Below are positions 8,218-59,946 of a stretch of 64,000 nucleotides of DNA, in pieces (position 1 is the stretch's first letter; each line of letters opens with the position of its first letter). Location: NCBI RefSeq assembly GCF_007954585.1, contig NZ_CP042382.1:3162001-3226000 (forward strand), in the 5' to 3' direction. The notes beneath the pieces are model-generated. The model made no database searches and was not told where the DNA came from. It saw only the letters and a program-made list of their open reading frames with translations. A program made the translations under genes and the position numbers. The DNA is from Pistricoccus aurantiacus. GTDB lineage: Bacteria > Pseudomonadota > Gammaproteobacteria > Pseudomonadales > Halomonadaceae.

Positions 8218-9528
8218 TTAATCCAGCCGCGCTCGGTTGAAGAATAGTGTCAAAACACGAATCAGCTGTTCCGCGTCCTGACTGCCGGCGGTTTCGCGGA
8301 TCGAGTGCATGCCCCACTGAGGAATGCCTACATCAAGCGTCGGCACCCCGAGTTCCGCGGCGGTAATCGGTCCGATGGTGCTGCCGCAGGCCATGTCCGC
8401 CCGAGTGACGAAGCGTTGTACCGGCACGTCCGCTTCTCGGCACAGCTCGCTGAACATGGCGGCGGTAGCGCTGGTGGTGGCATAGCGCTGATTGGCGTTG
8501 ACCTTGATCACCGGCCCGCCGTTGATGGCCGGGCCGTGCTGGGCATCGTGCTTGTCGGTGAAGTTGGGATGCAGGGCATGGGCGTTGTCGCAGGAAATCA
8601 GCCGCGAGGACTGGATCAGCCGAACAAAGCCCTCTTCACCACTCTCTCCGACCTGAGCATTGATACGTCGCAGTACATCGCTCAGGAAAGGCCCCTGAGC
8701 GCCGCCGGCGCTGGCGCTGCCCACTTCCTCGTGATCGTTGGCTACCAGCAACGCGCCCTGGCTGCGGTCGCTGGCCAGCAGGGCCTCAAGGCCGATAAAG
8801 CAGGAAAGCAGGTTATCCAACCGAGCGCTGGCGATCAACTCGCCCGCCACACCGACTCGGGCCGGCGGCTGGGTGTCGTAGAGCGCCAGCTCGAAACTCA
8901 AGGGCGTAGCATCCTTGATAGCGTGCTGTTCCTCTATCCAGCCCTTGAGCAAGCGTTCGAAGTCCCCTTCCTGGCCGTACTGCATGAACACCGGCGCCAT
9001 CTGGGTCTGGGGATTGATGGCGCGGCCGTTGTTGACCTCCCGGTCCAGATGGATCGCCAGGCTGGGAATGATCGCCACCGGGCGCCGGGTATCGAGCAGC
9101 ACGCTGGCAATCTCGCCGCTGGGCTTTCGCATGTGCACTCGGCCCGCCAGGGCCAGGTCGCGGTCGAACCAGGGCGCCAGCAAGGCGCCGCCGTAGACCT
9201 CGACGCCGAGCTGCAGCCAGCCGGCGCTTGTCTGTTCGGGATTCGGCTTGAGCCGGAGCCCGGGGCTATCCGTGTGGGCCCCCACCAGGCGCAGCGCCGT
9301 CAGCGGACTCTCCGGCAGCCGACAGGCAATCAGCGAGGAATCGTTGCGGGTCACATAGATTCGATCACCGGGACTCAGCTGCCAGGATCGCATTTCTTCC
9401 AGGCGGCGAAACCCTGCCGTTTCAAGCCGCTCGGCCATGTTGGCGGTGGCGTGCCAAGGGGTCGGCGAGCGCTCGAGGAAATCAAGCAGTGAGTCCGAGC
9501 TATCATTCAAGGGCATCATCATTCTCAT
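8218..9528 (-). CDS. apeB: M18 family aminopeptidase
   Basis: 436 residues, right for the M18 (aspartyl aminopeptidase/ApeB) metallopeptidase family. Zinc-site motifs are visible: VGAHTDSPGLRLKPNP, VANDHEEVGSASAGGAQG, ISCDNAHALHPN and MACGSTIGPITAAELG. M18 enzymes remove N-terminal residues from peptides in the cytoplasm, often preferring acidic ones. The N-terminus has several closely spaced Met codons (MRMMMPLND), so the exact start is uncertain by a few residues. It converges on tRNA-Met across a shared terminator and is divergent from prc. Confidence 0.94.
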   Translation of the reverse strand: MRMMMPLNDSSDSLLDFLERSPTPWHATANMAERLETAGFRRLEEMRSWQLSPGDRIYVTRNDSSLIACRLPESPLTALRLVGAHTDSPGLRLKPNPEQTSAGWLQLGVEVYGGALLAPWFDRDLALAGRVHMRKPSGEIASVLLDTRRPVAIIPSLAIHLDREVNNGRAINPQTQMAPVFMQYGQEGDFERLLKGWIEEQHAIKDATPLSFELALYDTQPPARVGVAGELIASARLDNLLSCFIGLEALLASDRSQGALLVANDHEEVGSASAGGAQGPFLSDVLRRINAQVGESGEEGFVRLIQSSRLISCDNAHALHPNFTDKHDAQHGPAINGGPVIKVNANQRYATTSATAAMFSELCREADVPVQRFVTRADMACGSTIGPITAAELGVPTLDVGIPQWGMHSIRETAGSQDAEQLIRVLTLFFNRARLD

Positions 9529-9644
9529 CCGGGGCTATGTCTCGTGACCCATACTGTTACAATAAGGGTTCGGCCTTCGCAACGCGGCTGCCGAACGAGG
9601 GTCTTCAAGGAAAGAGTGTACATGAATCTGGGAGTGCTTCATCG

Positions 9645-11783
9645 ATGAGCCTGACTGCAGCCCTGCGGCGATTCCCGCGGCAAGCGTTCTTGTGGCAAGC
9701 CTTCTTGCAGCGAGCGACGATTATCGCAATATTGCTGCTTGCCAGCAGCTCGGCCCTTGCCGAGCCCCAATCCATCAGCGAGCCAAAGCCCACCAGCGAA
9801 CAGCGCCAGGCCGCTGCGGAAGTCGCCGATGCCCTGCGCTACGGCCACTACGCGGATGTGAAGCTTGACGACGCCTGGTCGCTGCGTACCTTTCAGCGCT
9901 ATCTCGACTATCTCGATCCCCAGCGTGCCTATCTACTGTACCGGGACGTGGAAGAGTTTCGCCAGCCGCTGCAGACGAAGCTCGATGACGTGCTCTACGA
10001 CGGCGATCTGGAAGACGTCTTCGCCCTCTATCAGCGTTATCAAGAGCGTCTGGAAGCTCGGCTCGAATGGATTCTGGCCAAGCTGGAGGGGGGGCTCGAC
10101 TATGCCTACGATACAAACGAGCGCTTGATTATCGACCGCAAGGACGAGGATTGGGAGCATACCAATTCGGCTCTCGACACCCTCTGGGAAAAGCGCCTGG
10201 AGAACGCCGCCTTGAGCCTTTCCCTGAGCGGCCAGAGCGATCAGGAAGTGGAAGATGCCCTTCGTCAGCGTTATGAAGGCCAGCTTTCGCGAATCCGTCA
10301 GACCAACGCGGAAGACATCTTCGGCGTGTTCATGGCGGCGGTAACCAGCAGCATCGATCCGCACACGGACTATCTTTCTCCGCGTCAGGGGGAATCCTTC
10401 GATATTCAGATGCGGCTTTCTCTGGAAGGCATCGGCGCCCTGCTGCAGAGCGACGGCGAATACGTCAAGGTGGCAAGTCTGGTGCCCGGCGGCCCGGCGG
10501 AAAAAGCCGGGGTGCTGAAACCCGCGGATCGCATCATCGCGGTGGGTCAGGACAATAACGGTGAAATGGTCAACGTGGTGGGCATGCGGCTCGACGACGT
10601 GGTGGAGCTGATTCGCGGTCCCAAGGGTTCCACGGTGCGCCTGGACGTCATTCCCGCGGAATCCGTCGACACCACCCGCTCCCAGGTCGTCAAGATCACC
10701 CGGGACACGGTCAAGCTGGAAGATCAGGCCGCCAGCAGCGAGGTGCTCGAGTTCAAGCGGGATGGCAAGAGGCAGAAGGTCGGCGTCATCAAGGTTCCCG
10801 CCTTCTACGTGGATTTCGATGCTTGGCAGGCGGGTGACGAGAACTACCGCAGCTCCACCCGAGACGTGGCCAAGGAGATCGAAAAGCTCAAGAAACAGGA
10901 CGTTGACGGCATCGTGCTGGATCTGCGCGGCGACGGCGGCGGCGCCCTGCAGGAAGCCAACTCCCTGGTAGGACTATTCATCGATCGCGGACCCACGGTA
11001 CAGGTCAGGGACGCCGACGGGCGCATCAACCTCTACGGCGATACGGAAAGCGGCATGCTCTACGACGGCCCTCTGGCGGTGATGGTGGATCGCCTCTCCG
11101 CTTCCGCCTCGGAAATCTTCGCCGGCGCCATTCAGGATTACGGTCGCGGCCTGGTATTGGGCAGCGACACCTTCGGCAAGGGCACCGTTCAGGTGCTCAA
11201 CGAACTGAGCCACGGCGAGATCAAGCTGACCCGGGCCAAGTTCTATCGAATTTCCGGAGAAAGTACCCAGCTGCGCGGGGTCGAGCCGGATATCGTCTAC
11301 CCCAGCCTGCTGGATGCCGAGTTGATCGGCGAAAGCAGCCTGGACAACGCCCTGCCCTGGGATACGGTGCGGGACGTGCAGTATCGCCATTACGGCAAGC
11401 CTTGGCGCTATCTAGAAACGTTGCGCGCCAGGCATCGCGATCGCATTCTCGACGACCCCAACTTCGTCTATCTGCAGCGTCAGGCGGAACTGTCTCGGCA
11501 GCTGCGCGAGCAGCAGACCAGCGTCAGCCTCAATCGGGAGCAACGTCAGAAGGAGATGGATGCCATCGAAGCGGAACAGCTGTCTCTGGAAAATCAGCGG
11601 CGTCGGGCTCTGGGCCTCGAGCTGCTGGACAGCTGGGTCGATGCGCGCGGCAAAGAGGTGGAGGAAAACGGCGGTGTTCCGGCGGATCACACCACCGAGA
11701 AAGATGATCCCATCGACCGGGCCGAGGTGCTGGAAAGCGCCGAGATACTGCTGGACTATCGCGAGCTGAGTCAGCCCAGCTGA
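9645..11783 (+). CDS. prc: Carboxy-terminal (tail-specific) processing protease
   Basis: I prefer the ATG at 9645 (MSLTAALRRFPRQAF), which leads into a hydrophobic segment ending at ALAE, a type I export signal; this gives 712 residues. After the N-terminal helical domain come a PDZ domain (GIGALLQSDGEYVKVASLVPGG) and an S41 protease domain with the catalytic Ser in SASASEIFAG and the Lys in GKGTVQ. Prc trims or degrades periplasmic proteins through their C-termini and processes FtsI. A longer frame from 9489 overlaps the apeB start region and is less likely. A terminator follows. Confidence 0.95.
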   Translation: MSLTAALRRFPRQAFLWQAFLQRATIIAILLLASSSALAEPQSISEPKPTSEQRQAAAEVADALRYGHYADVKLDDAWSLRTFQRYLDYLDPQRAYLLYRDVEEFRQPLQTKLDDVLYDGDLEDVFALYQRYQERLEARLEWILAKLEGGLDYAYDTNERLIIDRKDEDWEHTNSALDTLWEKRLENAALSLSLSGQSDQEVEDALRQRYEGQLSRIRQTNAEDIFGVFMAAVTSSIDPHTDYLSPRQGESFDIQMRLSLEGIGALLQSDGEYVKVASLVPGGPAEKAGVLKPADRIIAVGQDNNGEMVNVVGMRLDDVVELIRGPKGSTVRLDVIPAESVDTTRSQVVKITRDTVKLEDQAASSEVLEFKRDGKRQKVGVIKVPAFYVDFDAWQAGDENYRSSTRDVAKEIEKLKKQDVDGIVLDLRGDGGGALQEANSLVGLFIDRGPTVQVRDADGRINLYGDTESGMLYDGPLAVMVDRLSASASEIFAGAIQDYGRGLVLGSDTFGKGTVQVLNELSHGEIKLTRAKFYRISGESTQLRGVEPDIVYPSLLDAELIGESSLDNALPWDTVRDVQYRHYGKPWRYLETLRARHRDRILDDPNFVYLQRQAELSRQLREQQTSVSLNREQRQKEMDAIEAEQLSLENQRRRALGLELLDSWVDARGKEVEENGGVPADHTTEKDDPIDRAEVLESAEILLDYRELSQPS

Positions 11784-30902: not shown

Positions 30903-32099
30903 ATGTCCGTCATCAATACCAATATCACCGCCATGATTGGCCAGCAGAACCTCGGCAAGGCGCAAAACTCCCTGCAGACCTCCATGGAACGCCTTTCCTC
31001 CGGCCTGCGTATCAACAGCGCCAAGGATGATGCCGCCGGCCAGGCCATCGCCAACCGCATGAGCAGTCAGATCACTGGTCTTTCTACTGCACAGCGTAAC
31101 GCCAACGACGGTATTTCCGTTGCCCAGACTGCCGAAGGTGCTCTGAACCAGGTCAACGACAACTTGCAGCGTGTTCGTGAGCTGACGGTTCAGGCGCAGA
31201 ATGGCACTAATTCCCAAGACGATTTGGACTCCATTCAGGCAGAAATTGGCCAGCGTCTTAATGAGATCAACCGTATTTCCGAAGAAACTGACTTCAATGG
31301 AACCAAGGTGCTTGCTAAAGATCAGGCTGTGAGCATCCAAGTAGGCGCTAATGATGGCGAAGCTATTAATATCAATTTAGAAAAAATTGACGCCGCATCT
31401 CTCAGCTTAAGTACTTTTAATGTTAGCGGCCCAAAGGGCACACCCACAGGTGTTGATCCCGCAGCAGCACAAAAAGAGTTTGGCGATACCACTCAAATCG
31501 CAACAGCAAGTTTGACTAGTGAGCCAGCAGTCGCAGATTTTGCGTCTAAGTTTGATCTTTCTGCAAATCCAGCGACAGCTGTTAATTCTATCGTTACTGA
31601 CGATAACGGTAATTGGTTTATGGAGTCTACGGTTACAGCAGCGAATGCTGCTGATACGACTAAGCTTGAAGAAATGGGATATGAAAATACGGGCTCGGCG
31701 ACCGCTGGGGTATTTAAGATTTACGCATCCGTTGATCCCCAGGCCGCTACTCCAAATGGTACAGATCTTGAGTTTGGGGTTAGTCTGGACAGTTATGACA
31801 CGAATGAGCTCACTAACGGCTCTACAGCCAACCCGCTTGCAGCTCTAGATAGTGCACTGAGCAAGGTCGACACCCTGCGCTCTGACCTGGGTGCCGTACA
31901 AAACCGTTTTGAGTCTGCCATCACCAACCTGCAGACCAACGAGACTAACCTCTCCGCTGCTCGCTCGCGTATCGAAGATGCGGACTACGCAACGGAAGTG
32001 GGCAATATGACCAAGGCCCAAATTCTGCAGCAGGCCGGTACTTCCATCCTGGCCCAGGCAAATCAGCTGCCCCAGGGCGCCCTGTCACTGCTGGGTTAA
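30903..32099 (+). CDS. fliC: Flagellin
   Basis: 398 residues with the conserved D0/D1 ends: MSVINTNITAMIGQQNLGKA, LSSGLRINSAKDDAAGQAIA at the start and SRIEDADYATEVGNMTKAQI with the final LPQGALSLLG at the end. The middle (about residues 110-320) is the surface-exposed variable part. Its DNA is visibly richer in A+T and uses different codons from the two ends, which suggests exchange of the central domain. FliC polymerises into the filament after export with FliS. A terminator follows. Confidence 0.97.
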   Translation: MSVINTNITAMIGQQNLGKAQNSLQTSMERLSSGLRINSAKDDAAGQAIANRMSSQITGLSTAQRNANDGISVAQTAEGALNQVNDNLQRVRELTVQAQNGTNSQDDLDSIQAEIGQRLNEINRISEETDFNGTKVLAKDQAVSIQVGANDGEAININLEKIDAASLSLSTFNVSGPKGTPTGVDPAAAQKEFGDTTQIATASLTSEPAVADFASKFDLSANPATAVNSIVTDDNGNWFMESTVTAANAADTTKLEEMGYENTGSATAGVFKIYASVDPQAATPNGTDLEFGVSLDSYDTNELTNGSTANPLAALDSALSKVDTLRSDLGAVQNRFESAITNLQTNETNLSAARSRIEDADYATEVGNMTKAQILQQAGTSILAQANQLPQGALSLLG

Positions 32100-32122
32100 T
32101 AGTGGAATAGTAGTAACAATGA

Positions 32123-32145
32123 AGGTCGGCGAAAGCCGGCCTTTT
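32123..32145 (+). terminator. Terminator after fliC
   Basis: Stem AGGTCGGC-GAAA-GCCGGCCT with a stable GAAA tetraloop, then TTTTTAT. Confidence 0.92.
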
Positions 32146-32191
32146 TATATAAAAAAAATTTATTTTAATAAATCTCATGCAGGCATTTAAA

Positions 32192-32851
32192 ATGGATAAA
32201 ACAAAACAAACTTTAAACTTTCTTAATGAAGCATCAAACAAGATAGATAACGTCTCTATAATTGCAATGAATCCATGTGATTTTTTAAGATTTTTAGCTA
32301 GAATATATGGAATTATAAATGACTATAAAAAAGAAAAAAACTCAAGCCAAGACTCCCTTGTAATTATAAAAAAGTCATATCAATTGCTTGAATTAATTTT
32401 GGAATACCATACCAATAATAACTTACCTGTTGAGAAGGAAGCTATTGACATATTCCAAAATATTTTGGATTTACTATTATCAATCCTTTCAACAGATTTT
32501 AATGTGAATAGGAGTACATATTATGAAGCCAAAAAAATCAATCTTTTTATTCGAGCACTGAGAGCATCTGGAATAAATCCGGCTGCTTATTTAAACAAGC
32601 CATTTACTAATAGTTTTTATAACAAAGAATTAGAAAAAGACTTTAATGAAGAAGCATTAATTTATGCAAGACAAAACATAGAGAATTACTCTAAATTTAT
32701 CTATCATTTGGCTGATGGTAGCGCTTTTACACCTGACCTTTTTGCATTAGAGCCTTCTGCTAGCCAGTTTGAGACCTATTCGAATTTAGTTTCTCTTGAG
32801 GCGTCATGCAAATTATTGATTCATAAAAACAGCACAATAATTCAATACTAA
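32192..32851 (+). CDS. A+T-rich orphan protein downstream of flagellin
   Basis: 219 residues from the ATG at 32192, 8 bases after GCAGG; an in-frame ATG at 32177 is an alternative. I do not recognise the family. The product is helical and rich in Lys, Asn, Ile and Leu, with no signal peptide, membrane helix or catalytic motif that I can see. Its DNA is far richer in A+T than the neighbours, so it is probably a recent arrival. Its place right after fliC raises the possibility of a flagellin-modifying or defence role, but nothing in the sequence shows that. Confidence 0.7.
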   Translation: MDKTKQTLNFLNEASNKIDNVSIIAMNPCDFLRFLARIYGIINDYKKEKNSSQDSLVIIKKSYQLLELILEYHTNNNLPVEKEAIDIFQNILDLLLSILSTDFNVNRSTYYEAKKINLFIRALRASGINPAAYLNKPFTNSFYNKELEKDFNEEALIYARQNIENYSKFIYHLADGSAFTPDLFALEPSASQFETYSNLVSLEASCKLLIHKNSTIIQY

Positions 32852-33047
32852 GTGCTAGATATCAGCCAATATCTATAGGGCAAAAAATAATTAATTATGC
32901 CTTTCTTTCCTTAAGTAAAAGAACCAAGAGCAGCGTCATTCAATATCCGTTTAATAGCCTCCGTCAGAAGCTCCTCACCGAGCCCCTGATTGAAGAAAAT
33001 CCGAACAAGCGCTCTCGCGGCACTTGTTTTCTTATCGGGAGCCTCTC

Positions 33048-56576: not shown

Positions 56577-56720
56577 CCGAACTACACGAGCCAACGCAAA
56601 ACGCCTCGTCGAGATTTGATCGGCTAGCCGTTGTCAATCATGGCATCACACGCCAGTTCTTGTGCAAGTTGAAAGGACGCTTATATACTTTGTGCAGCTT
56701 GAATCCTAGCTTTACTATAA

Positions 56721-58031
56721 TTATTTAGACAAATAGTTATCATTACATCGATCTTGTAAATACACATTTGTATAAGGATACTGATTTGAACTGTCATACA
56801 TGGCATACGCTTTATCGATACAGTACTGACAAGACTTCCTTGGCACCGTAATGGCAAGTATATGTGCGGATTCGTCATTGCTTGAATCAATAACGCTGAG
56901 ACCAGAGCAATCATCACAAATTATGAATTTTTGCACCTGGTGCTCCGTAATTCCAGCAGTGTCAAAGTAAATTTTCCGTTCTCTTGTCACTTCTTTTTTA
57001 TTTTTAAACTTTTCTTCCGCCAGCTCTTTCTTATGTCTCCAAAGACTATAGACAGCCTCAGACAGTTTTTCGATATGATTTGTTATGGCTGTATCTTGTT
57101 TTAACTTGTCAGCATCGTAGTCAGGCTCAAATACATGTGAATAATCAAGACCGGCCATCGCCAAAATAATACCCAAATTGATATAAGGCAGTGCTCCTTC
57201 TATCGAGTAGCCACCTTCCAGCACCGCCATATCTGGATTCAAACGCTCATTTAGTATTGCATAACCTTGAGCTGTAAAATTCATATTTGTGAGCGGATCG
57301 CTGTAGTGATTATCTTGTCCAGCCGAATTGATAATGATATCCGGTTTGAAATCATTCAAAATCGGAATAACTACATTATCTAATATATATAAAAACCCTT
57401 CTTCACCGGTTCCAGGCGGAAGTGGAATATTGATATTATAACCATATGCTGATGGTCCACCAAATTCTTCTATACTTCCCGTTCCCGGATATAAACTTCT
57501 TCCATCCTGATGGAGTGAGATAAAGAGTGTATCCTTGTCATTCCAATAAATATCTTGAGTTCCATCACCGTGATGTGCATCTGTATCAACTATAGCGACT
57601 TTTAGATCACCATAGTCTTGCCTGATGCGTTCTAACGCTACTGCTCCGACATTGACAGTACAAAAACCTCGACCTCCATATACAACCCGGTGTGTATGAT
57701 GCCCTGGGGGTCTGACCAAGGCAAAAGACTTGTTTACTTCTTTTTCCATTACTGCCTTATATGCTCTTATCGCTCCTCCAGCAGCAACAAGATGTGACTG
57801 CGATAGCTGACTCGCTACATTGGGCACCACAATGTGAACTCTTGATACATCTTTTTCGCTTGCAATAACTGGATTGTAAAATTCGATCCCTTCAGTATCT
57901 TGAATTCCTTCTTCAAAGATTTGGTCTTGTGTATATAACAGCCTCTCTTCACGTTCAGGGTGTGTTTTTGAAATTGCCCAGTCAAAGGCTGGAAAAAAGA
58001 CTAAGCCCAACCTATTCTTGGCTTTAAACAT
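56721..58031 (-). CDS. Histone deacetylase-like amidohydrolase with a C-terminal zinc-ribbon-like tail
   Basis: 436 residues. Residues 1-300 form an arginase/deacetylase-fold domain with all active-site elements: RPPGHHTH (His111-His112), DTDAHHGDGTQ (zinc ligands Asp151 and His153), SAGQDNH (third ligand Asp240) and LEGGYS (Tyr275). Relatives deacetylate proteins, acetylpolyamines or other small acetyl-amines. Residues 365-410 add two CxxC pairs (C372/C375 and C401/C404), a probable zinc ribbon. The strong AAGGAGAAGGTG ribosome site and the A+T-rich codons differ sharply from the genome and point to transfer. It lies 142 bases after a HyuA-type gene on the same strand. Confidence 0.88.
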   Translation of the reverse strand: MFKAKNRLGLVFFPAFDWAISKTHPEREERLLYTQDQIFEEGIQDTEGIEFYNPVIASEKDVSRVHIVVPNVASQLSQSHLVAAGGAIRAYKAVMEKEVNKSFALVRPPGHHTHRVVYGGRGFCTVNVGAVALERIRQDYGDLKVAIVDTDAHHGDGTQDIYWNDKDTLFISLHQDGRSLYPGTGSIEEFGGPSAYGYNINIPLPPGTGEEGFLYILDNVVIPILNDFKPDIIINSAGQDNHYSDPLTNMNFTAQGYAILNERLNPDMAVLEGGYSIEGALPYINLGIILAMAGLDYSHVFEPDYDADKLKQDTAITNHIEKLSEAVYSLWRHKKELAEEKFKNKKEVTRERKIYFDTAGITEHQVQKFIICDDCSGLSVIDSSNDESAHILAITVPRKSCQYCIDKAYAMYDSSNQYPYTNVYLQDRCNDNYLSK

Positions 58032-58173
58032 TTCACCTTCTCCTTTTAAACGGTAATCTCATATTCCAAGCACGCATATAGTCTCCATATAGCCATATAT
58101 CCGGCCTGTTGTTGCAGCCTGGGACTTTGGACCTCGTTGAAAAATTCGTGCATCGCATGTTTATAACGCTAGA

Positions 58174-59838
58174 TCATTGAGACCGCCAATCATGGATCAA
58201 TCCTGGTGTTGTCTGAGCCCTGACTCTGATATTCTTGAAAACTCCTGAAAATCCTTTGACCATGTTAAAACTATTTGACTCGACGATTTCGGCTTCAATA
58301 TCAGCTTTATTCGCTCCGAGCTTGATAGCGCTGTCTCTAACGATTTCCAAGGCTCTATTCTCAGCCATTTCTAAATTATAATTTCGATTAATCGTTTCGT
58401 ATATTCCTGCTTCTGGTGCGGACAATATTCCACGTTCAGTGTCAGCAAGCATATTAATTTCTATTGTTGGCTTGGCAAGTGCTGCCCCAACTGCGTTTGC
58501 GGTTTTGTATTCTTCTGGATACTTGACTTTCACTGCAAATTTTTTCTCTAAAAGAGGTGCTAATATTTTAGCTGGACCGCCAATGACATTAACGAACTGC
58601 GGTTCTATTCTTTTGTTTTCAAGTAATTCTTTAACTGTATAAACCGGGTGGGCATTAATTTTTATCAATAAGTTATCGACTTTCTCTTTAATCAGACCGG
58701 TCATTATATCCAATATTTTATTTGCGGCTTCTTTTATAGATAAATCTAACCTCTTGGCTAACTCTCCTACTGCCAAAACCGCTTTTTCTTTATTTCCCCC
58801 ATCGAGTTTACCTAGAGCAACCATTGCATCAGTTGGCGTTAGATATTCACCGCCAAAGGCAATTGGAGGTCCCATCCTTTGCGGGCCTATCTTAAGCTTA
58901 TTATCCTCCATCCTTACATAGCTATCGCCACCGAGGCCAATGGAAACTGAATAAATCGCTCTAATCAAAGTTTTATGATTATCAATATTTATTCCTAGTG
59001 GTTCGAACAGTTGAACTCCATCTGCCAGGAAAAAGATGTCCGTCGTTGTCCCACCAATATCTAAAAGCACCCCATCGTCAATTTCTGAAAACAAGGCACT
59101 AAGTCCCATAAAACTAGCTGCCGGTCCTGATAGGATAGTCTCGATAGGATTATTTTTCGCCGTATCTAAATCCATTGTTCCACCATCCGCCTTCAGTACA
59201 TAGATCGGAACGTCGACCCCTTCTAGCTTAAGCGATTTTTCAAAATTTTCAGCAAATTCCCTGAACGTGTTATTTACGGCTGCACTTAGGTAAGTTGTAT
59301 TAACTCTTCTGGGAAAGTTTAATCTTCCTGATGAACTATGCCCCATTGCAACGGTGTCAAAGTCGTCTATCAACATTTCTGAAATTTGTTTTTCGTGGCT
59401 CGGGTTCCTAGTAGAAAATTTGCTAACTATCCCGATAGATTCCATATTATTTTTAATAAAATTATCTCTAATAGTCTTTATTTCATCCTCGACTATTTCT
59501 TTAACTACAACCCCTCGATGGTCAGTATAACCAGAAATAAATTCTAATTGATCACCTACACGACTAAAATCATAATTCATGCCAGGGCCGCTTTGAACTA
59601 TCATTCCAACCTTGCTTACCCTTTTCTCAACAATCGCATTTGTTGATACGGTCGTACTCAAGTTAATTCTAGAGACTTTACTTTTATCGATATCTTCTAA
59701 TAAAATTTTCAGCGTAGTCCAGATAGTCTCAAATAAATTATTTCTGTCTGTGATTTTTTTTGATGTTTTAACTATATTGCCATTACTAATGACTGCACCG
59801 TCTATATGAGTTCCACCTACATCTATTCCAATAATCAT
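58174..59838 (-). CDS. Hydantoinase/oxoprolinase (HyuA)-type ATPase
   Basis: 554 residues. The ASKHA nucleotide fold shows GIDVGGTHIDGAV at the start, STTVSTNAIVEKR, then LLDIGGTTTDIFFLADG near residue 265 and a late GGPAKILAPLLEKKF. HyuA-type proteins use ATP to activate cyclic amides or similar carbonyls and often need a HyuB partner; no HyuB is here and the protein is shorter than typical HyuA (~680). The DNA is A+T rich with Ile-ATA and Lys-AAA codons, unlike the flanks. It begins 50 bases after the fumC terminator, behind GGGAGG. Together with the deacetylase gene it forms a two-gene cassette. Confidence 0.88.
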   Translation of the reverse strand: MIIGIDVGGTHIDGAVISNGNIVKTSKKITDRNNLFETIWTTLKILLEDIDKSKVSRINLSTTVSTNAIVEKRVSKVGMIVQSGPGMNYDFSRVGDQLEFISGYTDHRGVVVKEIVEDEIKTIRDNFIKNNMESIGIVSKFSTRNPSHEKQISEMLIDDFDTVAMGHSSSGRLNFPRRVNTTYLSAAVNNTFREFAENFEKSLKLEGVDVPIYVLKADGGTMDLDTAKNNPIETILSGPAASFMGLSALFSEIDDGVLLDIGGTTTDIFFLADGVQLFEPLGINIDNHKTLIRAIYSVSIGLGGDSYVRMEDNKLKIGPQRMGPPIAFGGEYLTPTDAMVALGKLDGGNKEKAVLAVGELAKRLDLSIKEAANKILDIMTGLIKEKVDNLLIKINAHPVYTVKELLENKRIEPQFVNVIGGPAKILAPLLEKKFAVKVKYPEEYKTANAVGAALAKPTIEINMLADTERGILSAPEAGIYETINRNYNLEMAENRALEIVRDSAIKLGANKADIEAEIVESNSFNMVKGFSGVFKNIRVRAQTTPGLIHDWRSQ

Positions 59839-59887
59839 CTATAACCCTCCCAAGCCTTTCAGTAGGAGCATATATTAATAGACACAT

Positions 59888-59923
59888 AAAAAGCGCCTCA
59901 TCGATACTGGATCGGTGAGGCGC
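59888..59923 (-). terminator. Terminator after fumC
   Basis: Leftward reading: a 13-bp stem (GCGCCTCACCGAT with its complement, one G-T pair) and five-base loop, followed by TTTTTATG. Confidence 0.92.
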
Positions 59924-59946
59924 AGTCAAAATCCGGAACCGACCGG

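Follow-up and report, generated by a model that had tools for sequence, protein, structure and literature searches.

HyuA-type ATPases are widespread and mostly without a known substrate, and the same is true of the bacterial proteins with a histone deacetylase (HDAC) fold. In the caprolactamase CapAB, the ATP site is on CapA and the zinc site on CapB, neither of which is dispensable; the CapA aspartates equivalent to the motif Asp of HyuA are required for activity, and the task of the HyuA/CapA subunit ends with activation of the amide, the ring being opened by the metal subunit, HyuB or CapB (PMC8453981). Another group of short HyuAs, represented by one on the Parageobacillus plasmid pGEOTH01 and one at L034, adjoins a gene for an S-Me-THD-like protein (DUF917), and so a short HyuA with a partner other than HyuB is already known. 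Among HDAC-fold enzymes, HDAC10 has Glu as its gatekeeper, and the substitution E274L made this polyamine deacetylase a lysine deacetylase (PMC5454378). Ectoine hydrolase EutD and the deacetylase EutE form a bimodule, for which the available part of the source describes no ATP step (PMC8739950).

A gene pair of Pistricoccus aurantiacus can be set beside each of these systems. It lies in the window, the whole 64,000-nt stretch of DNA analysed here (positions 3162001-3226000 of a 3.78 Mb genome in a single contig), and consists of two minus-strand ORFs, both intact in the ORF list and exactly where the initial annotation had placed two adjacent genes: first that of a short-form HyuA-type (hydantoinase/oxoprolinase) ATPase of 554 aa (58174-59838), and then that of an HDAC-fold zinc amidohydrolase, class II or HDAH-like, of 436 aa (56721-58031). 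Like caprolactamase, 5-oxoprolinase and N-methylhydantoinase, the pair has a HyuA-fold subunit for ATP that contains both phosphate motifs, and a partner gene for a metal-dependent hydrolase, but its HyuA is sequence-distant and has 554 rather than ~690 aa, and the partner position is taken by an HDAC-fold zinc enzyme instead of HyuB. With the pairs of short HyuA and DUF917 it shares a single adjacent partner and the lack of HyuB; there the partner is S-Me-THD-like, whereas here it has the HDAC fold, which is the new element, and the HyuA is in a clade of its own. The HDAC keeps the fold and the zinc and catalytic residues of HDAH, the dimethoate and propanil hydrolases and HDAC6, yet it forms its own clade and, unlike the HDAH-type class II amidohydrolases and HDAC6, has an extra C-terminal CxxC...CxxC domain and, in seven of seven loci, a HyuA neighbour. 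EutD and EutE belong to enzyme families other than HyuA or HDAC, and their likeness to the pair, that of neighbouring genes for ring opening and deacetylation, is one of functional analogy only. To that extent the comparison with ectoine breakdown originally drawn holds, an ATP step being outside what the available part of the EutD/EutE source describes. The open-access literature searched holds no paper on a HyuA-HDAC pair, in agreement with the early remark that no such system was known, and hydantoinases do not figure in a 2024 survey of bacterial deacylases. Strict pairing of HyuA and HDAC ties two orphan families to each other and may offer a small system for a role of the HDAC fold in an ATP-driven amidase.

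The two proteins

HyuA belongs to the Pfam families Hydantoinase_A (3.9e-51; 174.4 bits against a gathering score of 22.9) and Hydant_A_N (4.4e-28; 98.6 bits against 25.2) and is without the C-terminal part of the HyuAs of ~680 aa. The motifs of its ATP site, namely DxGGT at D6, K27, DIGGTTT at D260 and GGPA at 420, are invariant in seven members; D6 and D260 are the counterparts of CapA D11 and D295, and both phosphate-binding DxGGT motifs, each with its catalytic Asp, are thus present. There is also weak similarity to the acyl-CoA dehydratase activase and other ASKHA proteins.

HDAC matches Hist_deacetyl (2.2e-62, 211.5 bits), which places it with the zinc HDACs and HDAH. Its zinc and catalytic residues, H111/H112, D151, H153, D240 and Y275, for which equivalence is taken from the HDAC6 alignment, are invariant in seven members, and the zinc site is as intact as it had been read to be. 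The best PDB matches are HDAC6 and HDAH, both of which outscore HDAC10 and the acetylpolyamine amidohydrolases. The Leu in HDAC6 'GDPLGG', which we take to mark the gatekeeper position, is matched in the alignment by a Leu (L247) that is invariant in the family, where HDAC10 has Glu, and an acetylpolyamine substrate is therefore weakly disfavoured; a polyamine function as the leading idea was ruled out by this residue. The subfamily-specific C-terminal domain (~aa 300-436, ~135 aa; 56724-57134, minus strand), recognized by its invariant alignment columns, contains C372-x2-C375 ... C401-x2-C404 and LQDR..D, all invariant. It matches no Pfam or NCBIfam family, a Foldseek search against the PDB gave no significant match, and it is a probable metal-binding ribbon. 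AlphaFold modelling of HDAC from two sequences gave a pLDDT of 34.5, too low for use, and that of the C-terminal part alone 68.2, with values of ~80-90 in the last ~45 residues only. The window genome has four further HDAC-fold genes (L001, L002, L003 and L005), 24-40% identical to the paired HDAC and with no HyuA within 1.5 kb.

Distribution and descent of the pair

A Thiorhodococcus MAG (G767, locus L006) carries the pair in the same order with a 0-nt gap, the HyuA being 74% and the HDAC 81% identical to those of the window, and with a G+C of 0.379 against 0.613 in its flanks. In the order to which this MAG belongs, the HDAC profile detects five more full-length members (G912, G887, G785, G779 and G804); in all five, HyuA (41-43% identity) is directly upstream of HDAC, with a 7-nt overlap between the hyuA stop and the HDAC start. 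The HDAC subfamily is present in 6 of 195 genomes of that order and the HyuA subfamily in the same six (of 210), with no solo copy of either gene seen in these scans; the six carriers represent few lineages and form three clusters, so that the counts are not independent events. The HDAC subfamily was otherwise not found in 369 gammaproteobacterial genomes, nor the HyuA subfamily in 398 genomes of the phylum, and 201 genomes of the window's family contain no second HyuA of the subfamily (the best scores 205 bits, the window copy 980). With the window included, gene order and strand are identical in seven of seven carriers, and the co-occurrence search first proposed as a check therefore finds the two genes adjacent in every carrier rather than rarely so.

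The pair-linked HDACs form one clade (100/100) and so do the pair-linked HyuAs (100/99), which are separate in the tree from the DUF917-linked ones. Where resolved, the two trees are congruent, with (window, L006) apart from (L074, L075) and (L076, (L077, L078)); since the HDAC out-group has long branches and not every inner fork is settled, only the clade and the close pairs are firm. Between the window and L006, dN/dS is ~0.05 for HDAC and ~0.09 for HyuA, with dS near saturation, and both genes are under purifying selection. The constant adjacency, the shared set of carriers and the congruent trees support the view that HyuA and HDAC function as a pair, and on comparative grounds they are a real two-gene unit, conserved, dedicated and horizontally mobile. 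In five GC-rich carriers (0.65-0.71) the G+C of the pair is about that of the host, so there the pair is resident, and only the copies of the window and L006 can be recognized as foreign; a small mobile cassette thus came as AT-rich DNA into at least two unrelated GC-rich gammaproteobacteria.

Neither a HyuB nor a DUF917 (S-Me-THD_N/C) gene is next to the window pair, the gene adjoining HyuA being that of HDAC, and HyuB is adjacent at none of the seven loci. No match to Hydantoinase_B was obtained in G767, G785, G779 and G804, four of the seven carriers, and in these HyuA can therefore not rely on HyuB, with the qualification that G767, as a MAG, is possibly incomplete; in G779 the pair is on a 3.78-Mb contig. 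The description of this HyuA as one without HyuB is supported both at the locus and in these genomes.

Composition, insertion site and junction

The pair has a G+C of 0.390, against 0.594 +/- 0.041 in 3118-bp stretches of the window (z = -5.0), and its GC3 is 0.32, against 0.73-0.82 in the flanking genes; the chromosome has ~60% G+C. The A+T-richness that drew attention to the locus is thus real, and the flanks do not share it. Shine-Dalgarno-like sites, also remarked on then, can be read directly for both genes on the minus strand, GGGAGGG for HyuA (59845-59851) and AAGGAGAAGG for HDAC (58036-58045). The insert is held in the interval (56577-59946) between a gene of the EEP (endonuclease/exonuclease/phosphatase) family and fumC. 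fumC was found in 25 genomes of the family, and at seven same-family loci (L043, L044, L045, L046, L048, L049 and L055) only 32-155 nt, without the pair, separate it from the EEP-family gene, which bears out a clean insertion after fumC. A terminator-like stem-loop of fumC with a T run behind it (59893-59923, minus strand), close upstream of HyuA, was found by eye and is absent from the terminator-scan output. No clear target duplication is seen at the insert edges; the two edges share an imperfect 40-nt similarity, which may merely be that of two terminators. Searches of viral contigs and plasmids and, with HDAC as query, of phages yielded no orthologue, and nothing therefore points to carriage on a plasmid or phage. 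Arrival of the pair in the P. aurantiacus genome by lateral transfer, the origin initially proposed, is supported by its sequence. Elsewhere in the window, an ORF of 224 aa (32177-32851, plus strand) directly behind a flagellin-like ORF (30903-32099) is AT-rich (34% G+C in the 1-kb stretch 32001-33000) and has no Pfam match; it is possibly another foreign gene.

The spacer between HyuA and HDAC is 142 nt in the window, and its treatment as a plain intergenic region was dropped once a repeat was found. The repeat inserted at the junction (58051-58187, ~137 bp) has an end sequence, GGCGGTCTCAATGATC, and a ~60-nt core in common with two more copies in the window genome. Part of the insert is an 82% match over 60 nt to two other genome sites (L091 and L092; G000:C1:3478178 and 217600) that share a 193-nt repeat, and this dispersed repeat, which starts GGCGGTCTCAATGA(T/C)C with the same bases at the end of the junction insert, looks like a small non-autonomous element. 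In L006, TTTAAAAGGAGAA is inside the hyuA end, immediately before the HDAC start; in the window it is 5′ of the HDAC start, with the ~137 bp between it and the body of hyuA. From the shared repeat sequence it is most likely that a small resident repeat element interrupted the junction after the arrival of the pair, that it replaced the last few HyuA residues and separated the genes, and that a junction originally overlapping or abutting was in this way broken by a repeat of the host. Both genes retain ribosome-binding sites and open frames after the insertion.

Candidate reaction and rival explanations

The pair may be an ATP-plus-zinc amidase with an HDAC-fold enzyme in the place of HyuB, a reading that is preferred here tentatively and as somewhat short of probable. 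The short HyuA, with its intact actin-like ATP site, would spend ATP on the activation of an amide or lactam, probably phosphorylating its carbonyl oxygen as has been proposed for CapA and 5-oxoprolinase, and the HDAC-fold zinc enzyme would be its dedicated hydrolytic partner, cleaving the activated C-N bond and so filling the role of HyuB or CapB in the classical enzymes and probably that of DUF917 beside other short HyuAs. In the carriers where the pair is GC-native, HDAC would be translated from a start codon overlapping the hyuA stop. Activation by ATP, hydrolysis at the HDAC site and physical contact of the two proteins are what we infer, and as substrates, small amides of the acylated or cyclic kind are more likely than acetylpolyamines. 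A fuller version, that of a new class of ATP-dependent amidase in which the HDAC fold has replaced HyuB, the Cys4 C-terminal domain docks the two proteins and the phosphorylated amide is attacked, is possible though decidedly doubtful. Against a joint amidase, HDAC retains every element of the canonical deacetylase site, and such a site works without ATP activation of its substrate; the HDAC tunnel, moreover, is narrow and is not known to accept a phosphorylated intermediate.

Ring opening followed by deacetylation had been the scheme of the initial annotation, and as a two-step catabolism, in which a cyclic amide is opened with ATP by HyuA, possibly together with a subunit encoded elsewhere, and HDAC then removes an acetyl or other acyl group, it would account for both the strict pairing and the intact canonical deacetylase site. 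A hydrolase-deacetylase bimodule has a precedent in EutD/EutE (PMC8739950), but characterised HyuA-type subunits need the metal subunit for ring opening (PMC8453981), no HyuB was found in four carriers, and there is no transporter or downstream catabolic gene that accompanies the pair at all loci. The functional pairing in that scheme stands and its order of chemistry is possible, but in characterised relatives the CapA-type subunit does no more than activate the amide. Because HyuB was not found in four carriers and a non-HyuB partner has precedent, it is no less likely that HDAC supplies the hydrolytic half of one joint reaction, and the joint amidase is preferred to two independent steps, which we regard as rather unlikely.

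A regulatory pair, with HDAC a protein deacylase recruited through its Cys4 domain and HyuA an ATP-driven activator or a small-molecule sensor, would make use of the invariant CxxC...CxxC domain, of the weak likeness of HyuA to activase and ASKHA proteins, and of the neutral gatekeeper Leu found also in acetyl-lysine deacetylases; it is improbable, as HyuA scores far higher with the hydantoinase family and the hosts are unrelated, with no neighbouring target gene common to all loci. Still less probable is stand-alone hydrolysis of acetylpolyamines or other amides by HDAC, with HyuA acting elsewhere in that pathway: the PDB matches do include the polyamine deacetylase HDAC10 and acetylpolyamine amidohydrolases, but HDAC6 and HDAH score higher, and L247 is invariant where HDAC10 has the Glu whose change in E274L switched its specificity (PMC5454378). 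That the two genes are chance neighbours which came in on a single fragment by horizontal transfer and do not function together would suit the foreign copy in the window and its present spacer, but it is already contradicted by linkage in every carrier down to 41-43% HyuA identity, by overlapping frames, an identical carrier set and long purifying selection, and has very little probability left.

Several genes are near the pair at some of its loci. In L006 a type I restriction-modification methyltransferase gene (9139-11520) starts ~160 nt past HDAC; a defence role considered because of it was rejected, since it is present at one of seven loci and neither HyuA nor HDAC matches a PADLOC defence model. 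A Hyf/complex-I-like cluster (Proton_antipo_M and NADHdh, in L077 also Oxidored_q6) lies ~0.5 kb behind HDAC in the GC-rich carriers L074, L076, L077 and L078, and none was seen at L006, at L075 or in the window. Two related carriers have a group 1 glycosyltransferase gene (L074 1675-2838; L075 1374-2453) shortly before the pair.
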